Source: Pontederia crassipes
Lineage: Eukaryota > Streptophyta > Magnoliopsida > Commelinales > Pontederiaceae
Reading direction: 5' to 3'
Assembly (NCBI GenBank): GCA_030549335.1
Contig: CM060197.1
Span: 18,922,501 to 18,986,500 of the forward strand
Length of the DNA: 64,000 nucleotides
The notes under the pieces are model-generated. The model saw only the letters and a list, made by a program, of their open reading frames with translations. It was not told the DNA's origin and ran no database searches. Made by a program: the position numbers and the translations under genes. Within the stretch, counting starts at the first letter, position 1. Every line of letters starts with the position of its first letter. Of this stretch, positions 36,645-54,800 are shown piece by piece.

Positions 36645-37447
36645 GAACCTTGATCTCAAAACGTAACGTTGCGCTTGTGTCCAAAGAAGCTAAAAGTCTC
36701 ACTCACTTATTGAAATATTTGAAACTTCTTATATTCTTATAAAGCCCATGCTCCACTAGCAGTTTCAAAGTGATCCAAGGTTAGGATTGTTATTTATCTT
36801 TTTTGTCATTTTTTGTCATTTATTTTTTATTCTTCATCTTTTGTATGTAATATGAATGGTCAGTTTTTTTATCTTATATTATATGTATTTATGTCATTGG
36901 AACCTTGATCTCACAAAAAACATAACGTTGCGCTTGTGTCCAAAGAAGCTAAAAGTCTCACTCACATATTGAAATATTTGAAACTTAAATATCATAATTT
37001 AAATGATAAGAAGACTAACCTTTTTCTTATATTTATTATATAATAAAGTCTATGCTCCAATGGCAGTTTCAAAGTGATCCAAGGTTAGGATTGTTATTTA
37101 TCTTTTTTGTCATTTTTTTTGTTATTTATTTTTATTCTTCATCTTTTGTATGTAATATGAATGGTCAGTTTTTTTATCTTATATTATATGTATTTATGTC
37201 ATTGGAACCTTGATCTCATAAAAAACATAAGGTTGCGCTTGTGTCCAAAGAAGCTAAAAGTCTCACTCACTTATTGAAATATTTGAAACTTAAATATCAC
37301 AATTTAAATGATAAGAAGACTAATCTTTTTCTTATATTTATTATATAATAAAGCCTATGCTCCAATGGAATCCAAGTTTAGGATTGTTATTTATCTTTTT
37401 TGTCATTTTTTTTGTCATCTGTTTTTTTATTCTTCATCTTTTGTATG
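36645..37447. repeat. Tandem array A, 255-305-bp units
   Basis: The word AACCTTGATCTCA recurs at 36646, 36901 and 37206. Each unit contains GTTGCGCTTGTGTCCAAAGA, AGCTAAAAGTCTCACTCAC, TATTGAAATATTTGAAACTT, GCAGTTTCAAAGTGATCC and AATATGAATGGTCAG. One spacing is 255 bp. The next is 305 bp, because that unit carries an extra segment of about 50 bp (AAATATCATAATTTAAATGATAAG and following). The array stops at 37447 in TTTTGTATGGA. It resumes at 39650 with ATATGAATGG, the words that normally follow. No ORF is conserved between units, so it is satellite-like. Confidence 0.85.
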
Positions 37448-39649: not shown

Positions 39650-40700
39650 GATATGAATGGTCAGTTTTTTTATCTTATATTATATATATTTATGTCATTG
39701 GAACCTTGATCTCAAAACGTAACGTTGCGCTTGTGTCCAAAGAAGCTAAAAGTCTCACTCACTTATTGAAATATTTGAAACTACTTATATTCTTATAAAG
39801 CACATGCTCCACTGGCAGTTTCAAAGTGATCCAAGGTTAGGATTGTTATTTATCTCTTTTGTTATTTTTTTTGTCATCTGTTTTTTATTCATCTTTTGTA
39901 TGGAATATGAATGGTCAGTTTTTTTAATCTTATATTATATATATTTATGTCATTGGAACCTTGATCTCAAAACGTAACGTTGCGCTTGTGTCCAAAGAAG
40001 CTAAAAGTCTCACTTACTTATTGAAATATTTGAAACTACTTATATTCTTATAAAGCACATGCTCCACTGGCAGTTTCAAAGTGATCCAAGGTTAGGGTTG
40101 TTATTTATCTCTTTTGTCATTTTTTTTGTCATCTGTTTTTTATTCATCTTTTGTATGGAATATGAATGGTCAGTTTTTTTAATCTTATATTATATATATT
40201 TATGTCATTGGAACCTTGATCTCAAAACGTAATGTTGCGCTTGTGTCCAAAGAAGCTAAAAGTCTCACTCACTTATTGAAATATTTGAAACTTCTTATAT
40301 TCTTATAAAGTCCATGCTCCACTGGCAGTTTCAAAGTGATCCAAGGTTAGGATTGTTATTTATCTTTTTTGTCATTTTTTTTGTCATCTATTTTTTATTC
40401 TTCACTTTTTGTATGGAATATGAATGGTCAGTCTTTTATCTTATATTCTTATATTCTTCTTATCTGCTCATGTTTCAATGACAATTTCAAATTGCTCTGC
40501 ATTCAACATTCTCATTTATCTTTTTTCTCACTTTTTTTGTTATTTATCTTTTCTTCTCTTTTTCGGTCTGGAATATGAAGTGGTAACCCCTGACCTTCTT
40601 ATATTCTTATAAAGCTCATGCTCCACTAGCAGTTTCAAAATGATCCAAGGTTAGGATTATTATTTATCTTTTTTGTCATTTTTTTGTCATCTGTTTTTTA
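39650..40700. repeat. Tandem array B, 255-bp units
   Basis: Same repeat as array A, with AACCTTGATCTCA at 39702, 39957 and 40212 (255-bp period) and degenerate partial units at about 40430-40600 and 40600-40860 (ATGCTCCACTAGCAGTTTC, CTTATATTCTTATATTCTTC). Units here are closer to each other than to array A, which suggests local homogenisation. Confidence 0.85.
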
Positions 40701-45836: not shown

Positions 45837-48800
45837 TCAGCAGTTCGTGTCATACGTTACGAGCCCTTGCAACTCCGGGCCTTCCAGCCGTGGATTGTTC
45901 TCAAAGCTGCATGAAGAAATAAGTAACTTTTAGCAGAGAAGATAAAAGAATCGTACGAGAAAGAAAGAAAGAACGGGGGAGGGAGGGAGAGAGATGGAGA
46001 GAGTTCAGATAAAAGAAGGCAGCCTCCTTTGTTTTGTTTCACAGTGAAAAGAACACATTTTGGAAGATGACCCATTGCAAGAAGTTTACCAACTTCAATC
46101 ACTAACTCAAAAAGGTGCAAGGATTAAACAGAAGATCTATGATGAGAAACATTTCCACTTTCAAGTGTCTCAATAGTCAGGCAGAATTCCCTTCCTCTAA
46201 TTTTCCTTGCAAACATGTTCTAGCAAAATGTTTTATGCTTCAGACAGACAAACTTATCGATGTCTTGCAGATATGCAGCAGAAACTTTTCAAATTATATA
46301 AATAAGCATACTGCTTCTGAAACAACTATTCTAAAGCCATAAATACTTGAAAGCGTGGAAAAGTATTTTTATCAACAATCCTAGGATGCATCAACCAAGT
46401 GGCTCCAGGAACCACAAAGCTCATGCGGCTGCCACAATTATTTGGAAATAGTGTAAGTTGTAACTGTAGCTATCCAAACAAGAAAAGTGAGAACGAAAAA
46501 AAGACTGTTGTTTGCACCCAATAAAACCAACTTGTGCCCAAGATATAGAGAGTGTAGAATAAAATGATCAAGATGATAGAAATTACTTGTTTAAGGGAAT
46601 GTGTTCAAATGGTCCAGTAGTTGGAATTGTTCCACAAAGGTCATTGTTGGATATATCTCTGGGAGAACAAAGAAAATGGACATCAATAGCCAATGAATAC
46701 AACAACTAAGATAAATAATGCATATAAAAGAAAAGGCAAGCGCTTACACTACTTTAAGGGTGGGGATTGCAACAAGTTCCCTTGGGATTGGGCCAGTCAA
46801 ACGGTTATCGTTCAGACGTCTGCAAAAATGCAATACTTACAAACTGGTTTAAGCATTAATATTTGGTATTTAGAAAAAGGGTCACATCTGGAGGTCAAAG
46901 ATATCATTATCTGGACGACATACTCACAAGAATACTAGTGACTTCAGTTTCCCAAAGGATGGAATAACCCCTGAAATGTTGTTATTATACAAATCCAAAG
47001 AAATCAGGCTTGTTAAGTTGCCCAGTTCTGCAGGGATACTTCCCTGGATGTTATTTTTATAGAGTTCCCTGCATAAGAAATCAAAGAACGCTAGAACAGA
47101 TTTTGCCAACATAATAGAGCATACAAAAGAGCATTGCCGACCCCACCTAGTGGGATAAGGCTTTGTTGTTGTTGTTGTAATAGAGCATACAAAAGACAGC
47201 AAAAAGTATAGAAATTACAACATAAAGCTTCAGAATTCCACAGAGAAAATTAAATTGGCCTTGCTCGGTGGTAATAATCTGTCTTTAGATATTGGCTTCC
47301 ATAAGTTGAAAAGAAAAGTGGGAGATTTCAATTGGAAAAAAGAAAAGAGGAAATTCGGTGGAGAGTTTCTATAACATTAGTGTATCTTTCACTAAGAAGG
47401 ATCACTAAAATCCTAGCTTACACAAATCGATGAAAAAAAAATCTTTTTGAATGGAAAATGATGGAAAAAAGTAGGTTATCAAAAGAGCTCACACATGTGA
47501 ACAGCTTGAGGTGAGATAGGTTATCCTGATAGAGGTCATCTCATAGAAGTCTATATGACTAACATAAAGTACTTGGCACTCAAAGAGTCCAACATAAGAA
47601 TGACTTTGATTGAGACTATGGATTTCAGCAATTCACAACATCCTTAAATTCATTTTATTTTTCTTATCCAACAAGTTCCATTGTTAGATGAAACATTTTA
47701 TAAGTGAATTTATCAAGGGCAAGTAACCTACATAGTTTTAATGTAATACCCCAGATTTTTAAACCAGGGGTGAATCAGTAAATTGGTTAAAAAGCCCCAA
47801 CCTCCCGTATATAAAGACCCAAGACTCCTTTGTTTACCTCTTCTCTCCATCTGAATTCTTGACGGCTAGGGCTTGAGGAAGGAGATCTTGAGGAGCAAGG
47901 AGGAAGAGGAAGAAAAGGAAGAAGGGGGAGAAAGAAGAGAAGGATCAACTAAGATTAAAGTATGTAAAGGGGATCCAAACCCCTCTCCCCTCTCAATGTT
48001 TTGATGATTGGATTGAGAGCAATAGGGCACCCTGCCCTATTAGGGATTTCATTGAGGGTTTTTATATGAATCATGAGATCTAAAATAATTCAGATAACAT
48101 CCATGCTTAGATCTACAAGTTAGGGTTCATGTTTAAGATGTATTTTTTTATGCTTTAAGGGAAGAACCCTAGCTCTTGAGGCATGCATGATTTTATGTGT
48201 TTTTTATCTAATTTATGATGTTTTATCGCCTATAAATCATGCCTAAATCGCACCAAGGATTAGATGTCTTTTTCCACAAAAGTTTCTACCAAAATATGTG
48301 AAAAATCGTGTTGTACGAACGAAACAAGGCTTCTATCACGGACGTGATGAACCCCGTCACGCCCGTGACAGAAGGGCTGGAAACGGCCAAAAGATGGCGT
48401 TCTGTCACGCCCGTGACACATACAGTCACGGCCGTAACAGGGCCAAACACGGTCATGACAAATACGACTGTGACAGGAGGAAAAAAGGGCTCGGAACATC
48501 GTTCTGTCATGACCATGACACATACTGTCACGACCGTGACAATGTCAATCATGGCCGTGACTATACAGTCACGACCGTCACAGAACAGGGGTAAAAAGTT
48601 AAGGTCTGTCACGGCCGCGACCAACCCAATCACGGACGAGACCACCCGAAAATGGAATTATGTTATATTTAAATTATTCTCAAGGTATTTACTATTATGG
48701 CGTCGTATGATCCATGTAGCCGACCCCACCTAGTGGGATAAGGCTTTGTTGTTGTTGTTGTTGTATTTACTATTATGTAATGATGATTGATGATTCTATA

Positions 48801-51800
48801 TGAACCTAGATACATAAAATATAAATACTGAGCGACCTAAACTATTTTGATGATTGTGATAATAATGAACCCAATTGAAGAATTATGTTACTTGTCGCCC
48901 CTCAAACTGATGACAGGAAATACGGTGCCCTGCTTCAATGTGTTAGAATTTTCCTCGGGAAATTACTATGCTCTGCACTTTGGAGTTAGCATTTCCTGGG
49001 AGAATAATTGTATCTTCCTAGTAACGGTATGTATTTTCTCACTCACCTTCGGGTGATGGAGCCTCAGCTCCAAAGCCTAGCTAGTTTATTGAAGGGCAAC
49101 GGCTTGATTCTTCAATTACTGATAAGATCAAAGACCGAACTAATCTGAAAGAACTGATGACCATGAAAGTGGGTTCCAAAGGGTTATGAAGCAACCCTGA
49201 TGATATTACTGAGACAAGATAATGACAAGTGCTAGTCACTCGGTATGCCTACTGCTATTGACCGATGTACTGACTTTTATATGGTTACATGTCCACTGGT
49301 ATTACTGTTACTAATATACATTGATGATATGATATGAGATATTGACATGCTTATCATATGACTGACATGGCATTCATGCATGTTTATTTCATGTCTATGA
49401 ACTGTATCTTGCTTAGGACGCATATCATTGCATGGCCTTTACATACTATAACTGGAACCCTATACTCTAACTAGAACCCTGCACCTTGGATCCGTGCAAG
49501 TAACTAATCTGTTTGGATGGATGGCTAGCTCAACTCATGATGATGAAGTTGCACATGGTCCAGGCCAAGAATAATGTCACGATGTTGAGTCTATTAGACT
49601 ACTATTTTAGAGATGTTTTATGAACAATGAACTTCTAATTTTATCTATGACATTAGTTTCAAAGATTTTAATTTAAGACTTCCGCTGAAAAGGCATTTTT
49701 TATTTTATCTTCATGATTAATGACTTTTCACTATATTTATGTCTATTCTTTTATCATGATTATGTTATGGCGAACGGGCTAGCACTATCGAATTCCCCTA
49801 ATTGCCCTATAGCTTTTAGGGTGGATTTTCGAGGTGTTACAGTTGGTTTCAGAGTAGGTTTAGGACTTATGTTAAGTATGTCATATAACAGTTAAGTGTC
49901 TAAGTCTATGTGCAACCGTCATGAGCAACCATCCAAGGGTAAAGAGTATGTATATTTTGTGCCATATGTTTGACTATATAAATTAACCATCTAATGTTGG
50001 TTTAGCCAGGAGCCTTTGAACACTTCACAGGACCAAATGGAACTGATTGAGAGCATGACCCGCATGGCTCGTGCAATGGAAAGGAATGCGGACTCGAGGC
50101 ACGTTGGCCACTCGAGTTCCATAATAGAGAAGTTTATGAAACTGCATCCCTCTACCTTCAATGGGGAGAGGAATCCTGACAAGGATGAAGCTTGGCTGGT
50201 TAGAGAAGTTCAGAGCCATGGACTGCTTCGATTGGCATAGGGTCAACCTGGCTACCCATCAGATGGTTGATGGGCACATCACCGGTGGAAGTCAATGACA
50301 AGAACTCAATTTGATGAAGATGACGAGATCACTTGGAGGGATTTCAAGAAAGCCTTCGACGAGCTCCCGGGATTTTCCCCGAAAAGAGAAATCGATTTTC
50401 ATACAGAGCTAATGCTAAGGACGGTCCCAATTTCCAAACCTCCCTACAAGATGGCGCAAACTGCAGGAATTACTGGACATGGATTTCATAAGACAAAGTG
50501 TGTCCCCATGGGATGCACCTGTCCTATTTGTGAAGAAGGATGGATAGACTATGTATTGACTATAGGATACTCAACAAGGCGACCATCAAGAATAAATACC
50601 CTCTGCCCAGAATAGATGACCTATTTGACCAACTATCGACAACATTAAGTTTTCTCAAAAATTGACTTGAGAAGTGAATACCATCAGCTATGGCCATTAT
50701 GCCTTTTGGACTGACAAATGCTCCTGCAACATTTATGGATTTGATGAATATTCAAGCCTCACTGAATAGGTTTGTAATAGTATTTGTGGATGACATCATG
50801 ATATATTCATCAAGTCCTGAAGAACACCAGAAGCACTTACATATTGTTCTGGAGACTTTGCGGCAACATTAACTATATGTAAAGTTTTCCAAGTGTGAAT
50901 CTAGTTGGAGCAAATTATGTTTCTGGGACATTGTTCAAAGGAAGGCATTTCGGTGGACCCAGCAAAAGTTGAAGTAGTTGTCAACTGGGAGAGGCCAAGA
51001 CAGTAATTGAGTTCAGGAGTTTTTTAGGATTGGTCGGCTACTACAGAAGGTTCAAGTTTGAGCACTAGAAGCCACTGGGACTACTGTATCCATTGTTTAT
51101 ACCTCAGTGGAAGTGGGAGGAGATCACAATGGATTTTATTGTAGGACTCCCAAGGACATGATGCTACTTGGGTCATCGTGGACAGATTGACCAAGTCTGC
51201 TCACTTCTTACCATATAATGTGAGGCAATCAACCGCAAGTATGGTACAATTGTATATAGATGAGATTATCCGATTACATGGAATTCCTATTTCCATTGTA
51301 TCGGATAGGGACCCGAGGTTCACAGTAAGATTCTGGAGAGGATTGCAGCATGCTTTTGGCACAAGGTTGCTCTATAGTAAGGCCTTTCACCCTGAGTGAT
51401 GGGCAAAGTGAAATGACAATTCAAACTCTGGAGGACATGTTGAGAGCATGTGCAATAGATTGACAAGGGATGATCATCTCGTCGTAGCTGAATTTGCCTA
51501 CAACAACAATTATCATTCCTCCATAAAGATGACACCATTTGAAGCATTGTATGCACATGTTGGAATGCAGTTGGTGAGAGAAGACTACTAGGACCCGAAC
51601 CAATAGAAAAGTATGTAAAAAAAGTGAATCTGGTGAAGGAAAGGATGATGGTAGCTCAGAGCCGCCAGGAAAGTTATGCAGACAGGAAAAGGAGGGAACA
51701 AATCTACCAGGTTGTCATATACTGTTGAAAGTATCTCCTACCAAAGGAGTCATGAGATTCAGCAGGAAGGGCAAGTTGACTCCTAGATAAAATGGCCCAA

Positions 51801-54800
51801 CAACAACAACAACAACAAAGCCTTATCCCACTAGGTGGGGTCGGCTACATGGATCATACGACGCCATTCCGCTCTATTAGTAACCAAACCTTTCGGTATA
51901 TTATTCACCAATAGATCTTGCTCTATTAGTTCGCCAAGTGTCCGCCTTGACCTCCCTCTCCCTCTTTTAATCGGACTCCAGATTATTTGATCTACTCTTC
52001 TTACTGGCGCATCTAATGGTCTTCTCTGAACATGACCAAACCATCTCAAACGATTCTCTACCATTTTCTCACTAATAGGAGCCACTCCGACTCGTTCACG
52101 TATATGGTCATTCCAAATCTTATCTAATCTTGTATGACCACACATCCATCTCAACATCCTCATTTCGGCTACCCCCACTTTACGTTCATGTTGTCCCTTC
52201 ATAGCCCAACATTCACTACCATATAACACTGCTGGTCTTATAGCAGTACGATAGAATTTTCCTTTAACTTTATTGGGTACTTTTCTATCACAAAGAACTC
52301 CAGTGGCTTTCCTCCACTTACACCAACCAGCTTGAATTCTATGATTAACATCGTCATCAATCTCACCATCTTGTCTTACAATTGATCCTAAATATTTAAA
52401 CTTTGTCACTTGAGGAATTATATCCTCCCCTAGCCTAACTTTCAAATCGTCTCTAAGTTGTTTATTTGTGAAATTGCTATGCATATATTCTGTTTTATTC
52501 CTACTTAAACGAAAACCCTTTGACTCCAACGTATTTCTCCATATTTCCAATTTTGTATTAATCTCTTCTCTTGAATCCGCTAAAAGTACTATATCATCCG
52601 CAAATAGCATGCACTTAGGTACCTCCTCTGTGATACTCTCGGTTATAGCATCGATAACTAAATTAAATAGATACGGGCTTAAAGCTGATCCTTGATGTAG
52701 GCCAATTCCTATAGGAAATTCATTTGTCTCACCTCCGGGTGTCCTAACCCTAGTCAATGCCCCATCGTACATATCTTGTATTACCTTAATGTAGGCAACA
52801 CTCACCCTCTTCTTTTGCAAGGCTTTCCAAAGTACATCCCTTGGTACCCGATCATACGCTTTCTCTAAGTCAATGAAAGCCATATGTAAGTCTCTTCTCC
52901 TACTTCGATACTTCTCCATCATCCCCCTAGATATAATGGCCCATTCGAATTTTTAGAGGTGGGTGAGAGAGCATACAAATTGGCATTGCCTCCTTCGTAT
53001 GCCAGGATCCACAATATCTTCCATGTGTCTATGCTTCGCAAGTACACATACGAGAGCTCTCATGTGGTGGTAATTGAAGAGCCAACCATCAAAGAAGACC
53101 TCACATACGAAGAGTACCCCACAAAGATACTTGAGTATGGTGAGCTTCATTTGAGAAACAAGATGGTGAAGATAGTAAAGACTACATGGAAGCACCACAA
53201 TGGAACTGAAGACGAAATGAAGAAACAATTTCCAACATTATTTGGTAAGTGTTCTACTTTATGTTAAAATCCGAGGACGAATTTTCTTTTAAGGGGGGAG
53301 GATATAATACCTCAAATTTTTAAATCAAGGGTAAATCAGTAAATTGGTTAAAAAGTCCTAACCTCTCTTATATAAAGACCCAAGACTCCCTTGTTTACCT
53401 CTTTTATCCATCTGAATTCTTGGCGGCTAGGGCTTGAGGAAGGAGATCTTGAGGAGCAAGGAAGAAGAGGAAGAAGGGGAAGAAAGTAGAGAAGCATCAA
53501 CTAAGATTAAGGTATGTAAAGGGGATCCAAACCCCTCTCCCCTCTCAATGTTTTGATGCTTGATTGAGGGTTTTATATGAATCATGAGATCTAAAATAGT
53601 TTAGATAAGATCCATGCTTAGATCTACAAGTTAGGGTTCATGTTTAAGATGTTTTTTTTATGCTTTAAGGGAAGAACCCTAGATCTTGAGGCATGCATGA
53701 TTTTATGTGTTTTTTATCTGATTTATGATGTTTTATCGCCTGTAAATCATGCCTAAATCGCACCAAGGATTAGATGTATTTTTCCCCAAAAGTTTCTACC
53801 AAAATCTGTGAAAAATCGCATTGTACGGATAACGCAGGGCTTCTATCATGGTCGTGACGAACCCCGTCATGCCCATGTCAGAAGGGCTGGAAACGGTCAA
53901 AAGATGGTGTTCTGTCATGCCCGTCACATACAGTCACAGCCATGACAGGGCCAAGCATGGCCGCGACAATGTCGTCACGACCGTGACAGGAGGAAAAAGG
54001 ACTCCCAATATCGTTCTGTCATGCCCGTGACACATACTGTCACGGCCATGACAGTGTCAATCACGGCCGAGACTGTATAGTCACGACCGTGACAGAACAG
54101 GGGTATTAGACTACTATTTTAGAGAGGTTTTTTGAACAATGAACTTCTAATTTTATCTATGACATTAGTTTCAAAGGTTTTAATTTAAGACTTCTCTGAT
54201 AAGACAATTTTTATTTTATCTTCATGATTAATGACTTTCCGCTATATTTATATCTATTCTTTTATCATGATTATGTTATGGCTAACGGGCTAGCACTGCT
54301 GAATTTCCCTAATTGCCCTCTAGCTTTTAGGGTGAACTTTCAAGGTGTTACATTTAAAATGTAGCTTAAATATATTATGTCAAGTTTTATTGATCATGAT
54401 ATAGATTACTGACTAATGGACTCAGTTTTACACAGATACAAACTACATAATTCTGTTAAAAAGTTACTCAGTTCAGAGCGCACACAATTATTGCTACTTT
54501 AAGATGCAATATCTTTGTGATACCATTTGAAAATCTAACTAAGAAAAAATTTAAAATAAAAATAGTATCTTACAGGCGTAATGATTAGGACGAACAATAT
54601 TTTTCAGGTAAAAGAGTGAAACTTACAAATACTGCAAACGTTCAAGCTTTCCAAGTTCAGGCACAAGATGACCTGTCAAATTTGAACTTCCAAGGTCCCT
54701 GTAAAACCATTCAATAAAGTAAAAACAGATACTCTAGAACTAAGTTAAAAAGAAGCATCCTTAGGTAATTACACGGTAAAAGTGAAAGAGTTAGCTTCTC

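Follow-up and report, generated by a model that had tools for sequence, protein, structure and literature searches.

The stretch of DNA analysed here, 64,000 nucleotides long and called the window, holds a degenerate Ty3/Gypsy element framed by a 5-bp target duplication, TTTAA, which stands before position 47742 and after position 54352. This one element carries LTRs of two lengths, and both contain an array of short palindromes. The features are as follows.

47742..49841, plus strand: 5' LTR, 2100 bp, TGTAATACC...GGTGTTACA, delimited by the LTR ends and the target duplication
47808..47815, plus strand: TATA box TATATAAA, 527 bp upstream of the array
48335..48369, unstranded: group 0, dyads 48335-48348 and 48356-48369, 21 bp apart
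48370..48403, plus strand: linker after group 0, 34 bp, AGAAGGGCTGG...GTTCT
48404..48474, unstranded: group 1, dyads at 48404, 48425 and 48446 and a truncated one at 48466-48474
48475..48505, plus strand: linker after group 1, 31 bp, ending in GTTCT
48506..48581, unstranded: group 2, dyads at 48506, 48527, 48548 and 48568 (offsets 0/21/42/62)
48582..48607, plus strand: linker after group 2, 26 bp, ending in GTCT
48608..48642, unstranded: group 3, dyads at 48608 and 48629, 21 bp apart, with no equivalent in the 3' LTR
53303..54352, plus strand: 3' LTR, 1050 bp, without a counterpart of 48594-49591, which is present in the 5' LTR only
53845..54093, unstranded: array of the 3' LTR, with ten dyads in groups of 2, 4 and 4, one dyad lacking 2 bp

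What we take to be a tRNA-Met-like primer site follows position 49841, and a purine tract precedes the start of the 3' LTR at 53303. Pfam matches were found in three of the nine internal pieces scanned: RVT_1, then rve (weak, below the cut-off), then SH3_Tf2-1. Reverse transcriptase before integrase is the Gypsy order, so the element is not a Ty1/copia Sirevirus.

Within the 5' LTR, positions 48685-48777 are a short LINE 3' end, presumably of the plant RTE type, with a (TTG)n tail and GTATTTACTATTATG flanks at 48685 and 48763. Another LINE, which we also take to be RTE-type, lies antisense within the Gypsy internal region (51799-52952) and has a 373-aa open frame at 51831-52952. Locus L019, on another contig (C16), matches the segment 51797-54537 with 99.5% identity across 2741 bp, a length that takes in the 3' LTR and the adjoining flank; on this evidence, L019 is a recent duplicate of the window element's own 3' end. 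Tandem arrays with periods of 305 and 255 bp, mutually related, occur at 36739-37447 and 39651-40455.

The unit of the array is a 14-bp dyad, GTCACG-NN-CGTGAC (6-N2-6), present in 11 intact copies and 1 truncated copy at 48335-48642. When up to three mismatches to GTCACGRCCGTGAC are allowed, the 64 kb contain 39 strand-hits, compared with a mean of 0.94 (maximum 4) in 100 shuffles, and 37 of the 39 fall inside the two LTR arrays (21 rows at 48335-48642 and 16 at 53845-54093). The cluster of about 12 palindromes reported by the first-pass annotation is thus real. That annotation described the dyads as perfect or near-perfect; none of them is perfect over 14 bp, as the central two bases are usually unpaired. 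Among the 11 sites in the 5' LTR, 5 have two perfectly matched 6-bp arms. Over 20 sites from both LTRs, one of them in the 3' LTR counted one base out of register (53953 for 53954), each of the six arm pairs matches in 13-18 and the central pair in 6.

The spacing had been given as roughly 20-45 bp. Measured in the window, it is 20-21 bp inside groups (of 2, 4, 4 and 2 sites) and 40-48 bp between them, and the linkers start with AGAA or AGGA and finish with TTCT or GTCT. Recurrence in the 3' LTR, also part of the first description, applies to ten dyads, at 53845, 53866, 53914 (the one that lost 2 bp), 53933, 53954, 53974, 54018, 54039, 54060 and 54080. The last two sites of the 5' LTR are unpartnered there because the 3' LTR lacks a counterpart of 48594-49591. 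The truncated dyad at 48466-48474 has a whole counterpart at 53974, 20 bp past the 53954 site. In composition, the array (48335-48645) qualifies as a CpG island, judged from a CpG observed/expected ratio of 1.12 and a GC content of 0.54 rather than by an island-calling program; the LTR upstream has 0.33 and 0.38. A protein-coding repeat was considered and rejected: the 143-aa open frame at 48302-48733 reflects composition, since the 3' LTR array has stops in all three forward frames, and the 20-bp spacings and several linkers break the frame.

Comparison of the two LTRs reveals how this copy has aged. Inside the palindromes, 23 of 133 positions differ, 18 of them by transitions; where the context is CpG, 14 of 41 differ, every one by a transition, compared with 9 of 92 among the remaining positions. 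Spacers differ at 11/123 and the upstream LTR at 42/542, and the LTR pair outside the array (42/542 plus 19/247) differs at about 7.7%. The excess divergence of the palindromes is mostly CpG decay, as had been proposed when the differences were described as C/G transitions of the kind left by methylation and deamination, and it follows that the window copy decayed unprotected, as expected of a dead insertion. For the eight site pairs whose alignment is ungapped, arm pairs on which the LTRs agree are complementary in 31 of 33 cases, and a complementary allele or allele combination is found for 14 of the 15 arm pairs on which they differ.

How common is this motif? In the host genome (1.13 Gb, 43 contigs), the exact 14-mer gives 1757 forward and 1714 reverse strand-hits, compared with 2 and 2 for the pattern read backwards; these are not all separate sites, since GGCC-centred sites match both strands. 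A sample of 21 loci (L039-L059, 19 distinct places) was chosen solely for an exact 14-mer, first in order on one contig. The 14-mer belongs to a cluster of at least three in 20 of the 21 loci (18 of the 19 places), the exception being L039, whose exact site at 1501 lies outside its cluster. L056 and L059 were dropped because they show the arrays of L055 and L058 a second time. All 20 loci fetched by array similarity contain clusters, as their selection demands. Classified by flank, the 19 places comprise 8 of the window's family, called family A, 6 of another, called family B, 3 tied to family A only via other members (L047, L051 and L054), L039, left unassigned, and L043. At L043 (659-2622), the cluster spacings are all multiples of three, and the locus was set aside; it is probably a coding repeat in which the 14-mer would be read as Gly-His-Asp-Arg-Asp.

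The family A set has 28 loci, of which about 26 are independent because L019 nearly duplicates the window element and L024 and L025 share identical linkers; the counts below include these duplicates. One copy, L020, has what we take to be a chromodomain-like C-terminus. Absence from other family members had been named as an outcome that would refute the first description, but the array recurs in about 26 diverged copies of family A. Family B has LTRs of about 0.8-0.9 kb (the pair in L060, 445-1316 and 4459-5274, is 89% alike) and a minus-strand Retrotrans_gag protein (PF03732, E 7.5e-12), which we take to resemble that of the Athila/Tat group. L060 was excluded from the family B site and gap counts, as the cluster picked there lies outside the LTR. 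When the arrays are masked, the flanks of the two families cluster separately at the cut-offs chosen, and no flank similarity between them was detected. Transfer of a single array cassette between the families, perhaps inverted, is not claimed: when the long linkers of 12 family B gaps were compared with those of 67 family A gaps, scores were at or barely above those of shuffles (best 27, shuffle maximum 23). That two families carry the array points to a single host factor more than to a solution private to either.

Of the new facts, the most informative is that the sites lie on a lattice of two and four helix turns. Exact doublets, searched with a free gap of 1-31, give 147 and 142 strand-hits, compared with 0 and 0 for the control. 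The 100 matches listed correspond to 78 distinct places, 47 of them with a spacing of 21 bp, 5 of 20, 2 of 22, 23 of 38-43 and 1 of 35, while 13-19 and 23-34 are empty. In many of the 41-42-bp doublets, a decayed third dyad is visible by eye midway. Looser sites in family A give a less clean picture: 123 of 203 gaps are at 20-22 bp, 34 at 36-43 and 26 at 44-50 (across linkers), with 13 at 12-19 or 23-35. In family B, 15 of 27 gaps are at 20-22 bp. The copies are related, so that the doublet places are not independent and the phasing is partly inherited; 47 listed doublets have 29 distinct spacers, which are more alike than shuffled ones (0.497 vs 0.342).

Another question is where the array stands relative to the promoter. 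In family A, the TATA box, identical in 14 of 16 alignable copies, lies upstream, and the array is therefore probably transcribed. A donor-like GTATGT at 47960-47965 borders a stretch that is among the most conserved in the LTR, and 15 of the 25 family A loci that have a row in the alignment, counting L019, carry it exactly; from these sequence features, the family A array may lie within a leader intron. In family B, the order is different: the array ends 85-86 bp before a TATA box, CTATAAAAGG, in L041, L048 and L050, and L060 also has the box downstream. Of the seven family B loci, these four have it, and it was not seen downstream of the array in L045, L046 and L058. An array that may precede or follow the promoter is more readily explained as an enhancer than as an RNA structure of the leader, although in family B the element RNA would still carry it close to its 3' end.

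Which parts of the array are kept? Across the 28 family A loci, identity to the window reference is 85% in the arms (1501/1757), a value that register slippage in repeat-array alignments and the choice of 20 of the 28 loci by array similarity may inflate, and 76% in the spacers (2202/2903), in the upstream LTR (3701/4872) and at CpG positions (669/880). The central two bases are the least conserved, at 57% (248/438). A GC centre, which is an upper bound for a CGGCCG core, is found in 54 of 231 family A sites and in 20 of 33 family B sites; centres of AC, CC and GT are frequent too.

The first-pass annotation also listed independent variation of the half-sites among the outcomes that would refute it, and vary independently they largely do. 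Over 231 family A sites, picked with at most four mismatches to the motif, which conditions both the base frequencies and the test, complementarity of a site's own arms is 0.735 against 0.737 in permuted pairs (z -0.24), that is, no overall covariation. Only one of the six arm pairs, 3-12, covaries above chance (z 4.4). Family B leans to covariation overall (z 1.69, 33 sites), and the window's two LTRs on their own show a weak lean (p 0.13 and 0.09). Independent decay is no argument against a dimer site in which each half would retain one and the same recognition sequence and decay on its own. Constrained arms, a free centre, a fixed spacing and arms that decay mostly independently fit a dimeric DNA-binding protein.

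The array is strongly non-random and widespread in its genome, and it is probably functional for the element. Our preferred explanation, held with somewhat better than even confidence, is an LTR cis-regulatory array of helically phased putative dimer sites. Each 14-mer would be the site of a dimeric DNA-binding protein that reads TCACG on either side of a free 2-bp centre. A distance of 20-22 bp, or two helix turns, separates neighbouring sites, and runs of three over about 42 bp are frequent; at this spacing bound dimers would all sit on the same side of the helix, where cooperative binding could occur. Arms and spacing would be kept by selection acting on the transposing family, and we infer such selection on the spacing beyond descent alone, while single insertions would afterwards decay by CpG transition. 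The likely task would be to turn on the LTR promoter or keep it open, as an enhancer or a counter-silencing platform, given that the array can precede the TATA box in family B and lies downstream, in the leader, in family A, as enhancers may. The protein, its cooperativity, the activation and the sensitivity to methylation are all putative elements of this explanation. Enhancer activity of LTR/Gypsy sequences is documented in barley by STARR-seq, as the excerpt of PMC12016029 describes.

An alternative is that the array acts as RNA or is a hot spot of silencing: transcribed palindromes would form hairpins or a long imperfect duplex, be processed by Dicer into small RNAs and serve as a target for the host. 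Both arrays fold better than shuffles (z -6.8 for the 5' array and -10.5 for the 3' array), but any dyad array folds well, and these scores do not discriminate. Windows of 110 nt below -40 kcal/mol, the cut-off of PMC10760457, occur over both arrays, but 12 of the 15 such windows in a coarse scan of 1162 are elsewhere in the window. In maize, small RNAs are in excess on Sirevirus palindromes, with hot spots on the repeated motifs (Bousios et al. 2016, as cited in the excerpts of PMC10760457 and PMC5311732), and palindromes in the LTRs of maize Sireviruses have been proposed as targets of silencing. On the sense strand of family A, changes that keep a G-U pair outnumber those that break pairing (TG 63 and GT 33, 96 in all, vs CA 28 and AC 23, 51 in all), and C-to-T exceeds G-to-A at the two CpGs of the dyad. 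This wobble bias is missing in family B (TG 3 and GT 2, 5 in all, vs CA 5 and AC 1, 6 in all). The covarying pair 3-12 of family A and the lean of family B count in favour of this alternative, but a selected hairpin would show wider compensation, so that the covariation result gives it no overall support; at the T5-A10 pair, for instance, double changes number 11 when independent arms predict about 14. The 20-22-bp lattice is also unnecessary for hairpins. Of the options listed in the first description, a DNA-binding array is the best supported; phased dimer sites fit the data better than a selected RNA hairpin, and we consider the RNA or silencing alternative unlikely.

Could the array simply be a tandem repeat without function, in which slippage and unequal exchange multiplied a palindromic 21-bp unit that retrotransposition then spread further? 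Some duplication did take place: groups 1 and 2 of the window are old duplicates of about 102-106 bp with the same offsets, and similarity is slightly higher between spacers in homologous positions (0.43, 7 pairs) than between the others (0.34, 29 pairs). However, slippage alone would let spacers and palindromes diverge alike, whereas non-homologous spacers of the 5' LTR are near chance (0.34 vs 0.31) and the palindromes are at 0.74. The array also recurs in a second family, whose flanks do not match and whose linker homology is not robust. We regard this explanation as quite unlikely.

A chromatin boundary, in which the leader array would act like the Su(Hw) insulator, brings to mind Drosophila gypsy, whose 5' untranslated region contains twelve Su(Hw) repeats (excerpt of PMC2493044). 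About twelve motif copies in the leader of a Gypsy-type element, downstream of the TATA box in family A, are similar in number and place, but the parallel in that excerpt involves an animal element, another motif and another protein. The ability of the array to precede the TATA box in family B does not suit a leader insulator. Su(Hw) sites, moreover, are not known to be dyads, and no Su(Hw) is known from plants; a boundary role seems improbable. A recombinase, integrase or packaging site of the element is hardly credible. Dyads with a short core share no more than an outline with such sites; the cores of recombination sites are as a rule conserved, whereas the central two bases here are the least conserved, and integrase acts at LTR ends, whereas the array is 590 bp inside the LTR.

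The array is not without precedent. The first-pass annotation found that no feature type explained the cluster, but the LTRs of Sireviruses (Ty1/copia) have described arrays of palindromic repeated motifs. According to the sections of PMC2829016 on these motifs, an element has 8-32 palindromes, of which the 3' LTR holds 3-14; most have a CGG-CCG core, they make up CpG islands ahead of a TATA box, and the other Ty1/copia elements compared lack them. The features in common with those sections are a high-copy palindrome, mostly in the upper half of the LTR, with the composition of a CpG island, common to diverged elements with no single binding factor identified, and with the CGG-CCG core present in the GGCC-centred sites here. 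In contrast, the host is a Gypsy element, the half-site is TCACG with a free centre, the array lies downstream of the TATA box in family A (upstream in 4 of 7 loci of family B), and the 20-22/42-bp lattice goes unmentioned in those sections. With 11 palindromes plus 1 truncated in one LTR and 10 in the other, the element has the at least eight clustered LTR palindromes of a Sirevirus, but its carrier is not Ty1/copia and in family A the array is not upstream of the TATA box. Given the Gypsy element, the other half-site and the other promoter geometry of family A, it does not belong among the Sirevirus motifs, although by analogy it may work like them. Maize Ty3 elements generally have no obvious peak of such structure in the excerpt of PMC10760457, and among the matches listed, from a literature mostly without subscription journals, there was no report of a Gypsy counterpart. 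We regard the array as a Gypsy variant of the palindromic LTR arrays known from Sireviruses, to which the lattice and the sharing by two families add interest.

A second comparison is with the VANDAL transposons of Arabidopsis, whose VANC target motifs lie in non-coding tandem repeats, diverge rapidly and overlap RdDM targets (excerpt of PMC10398659). Common to both is a short motif repeated in the non-coding DNA of a transposon family. As that excerpt has it, VANDAL is a DNA transposon with its own VANC protein, whereas here the carrier is Gypsy and the motif a dyad; no VANC-like gene was seen in the nine internal pieces scanned of this one degenerate copy, which gave only reverse transcriptase, a weak integrase and SH3_Tf2-1.

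The array bears on the questions of which proteins switch on plant LTR retrotransposons and of how these elements are found by their hosts. A fixed motif on a fixed lattice, with natural sites numbering well above a thousand in a single genome, makes the question testable, and the decay series from CpG intact to CpG lost could reveal how methylation and mutation switch sites off. A wider suggestion, which we make tentatively, is that the two Gypsy families share the array because both dock one dimeric host protein that activates LTRs or shields them from silencing, so that an "enhancer code" would have reached Gypsy independently of the Sirevirus motif. Which protein might that be? NAC proteins (CGTG-N-CACG) would read the opposite orientation, the G-box of bHLH/bZIP proteins contains the ACGT that this dyad lacks, and the inverted repeats of ARF have another spacing. 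TALE homeodomains (TGTCA, inside the flank TGTCAC) and LOB domains (CGG...CCG dyads) were likewise considered and not matched, and we propose none of these factors as the binder. A search of published text for the motif letters yielded nothing relevant among the matches listed, one of which was a Streptomyces paper.

Beyond the host genome, a viral contig collection gave 0 exact matches to the doublet pattern, and a genome contig collection gave it in 10 contigs titled as bacterial. Metagenome-assembled contigs titled Treponema, Mediterranea and Prevotella contain short TCACGRCCGTGA dodecamer arrays with a 22-bp period, found with a search pattern restricted to periods of 18-22. They are apparently convergent, and lie at the following positions.

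L009, 1632-1850: TCACGRCCGTGA array
L007, 2520-2580: TCACGRCCGTGA array
L003, 60-125: TCACGRCCGTGA array
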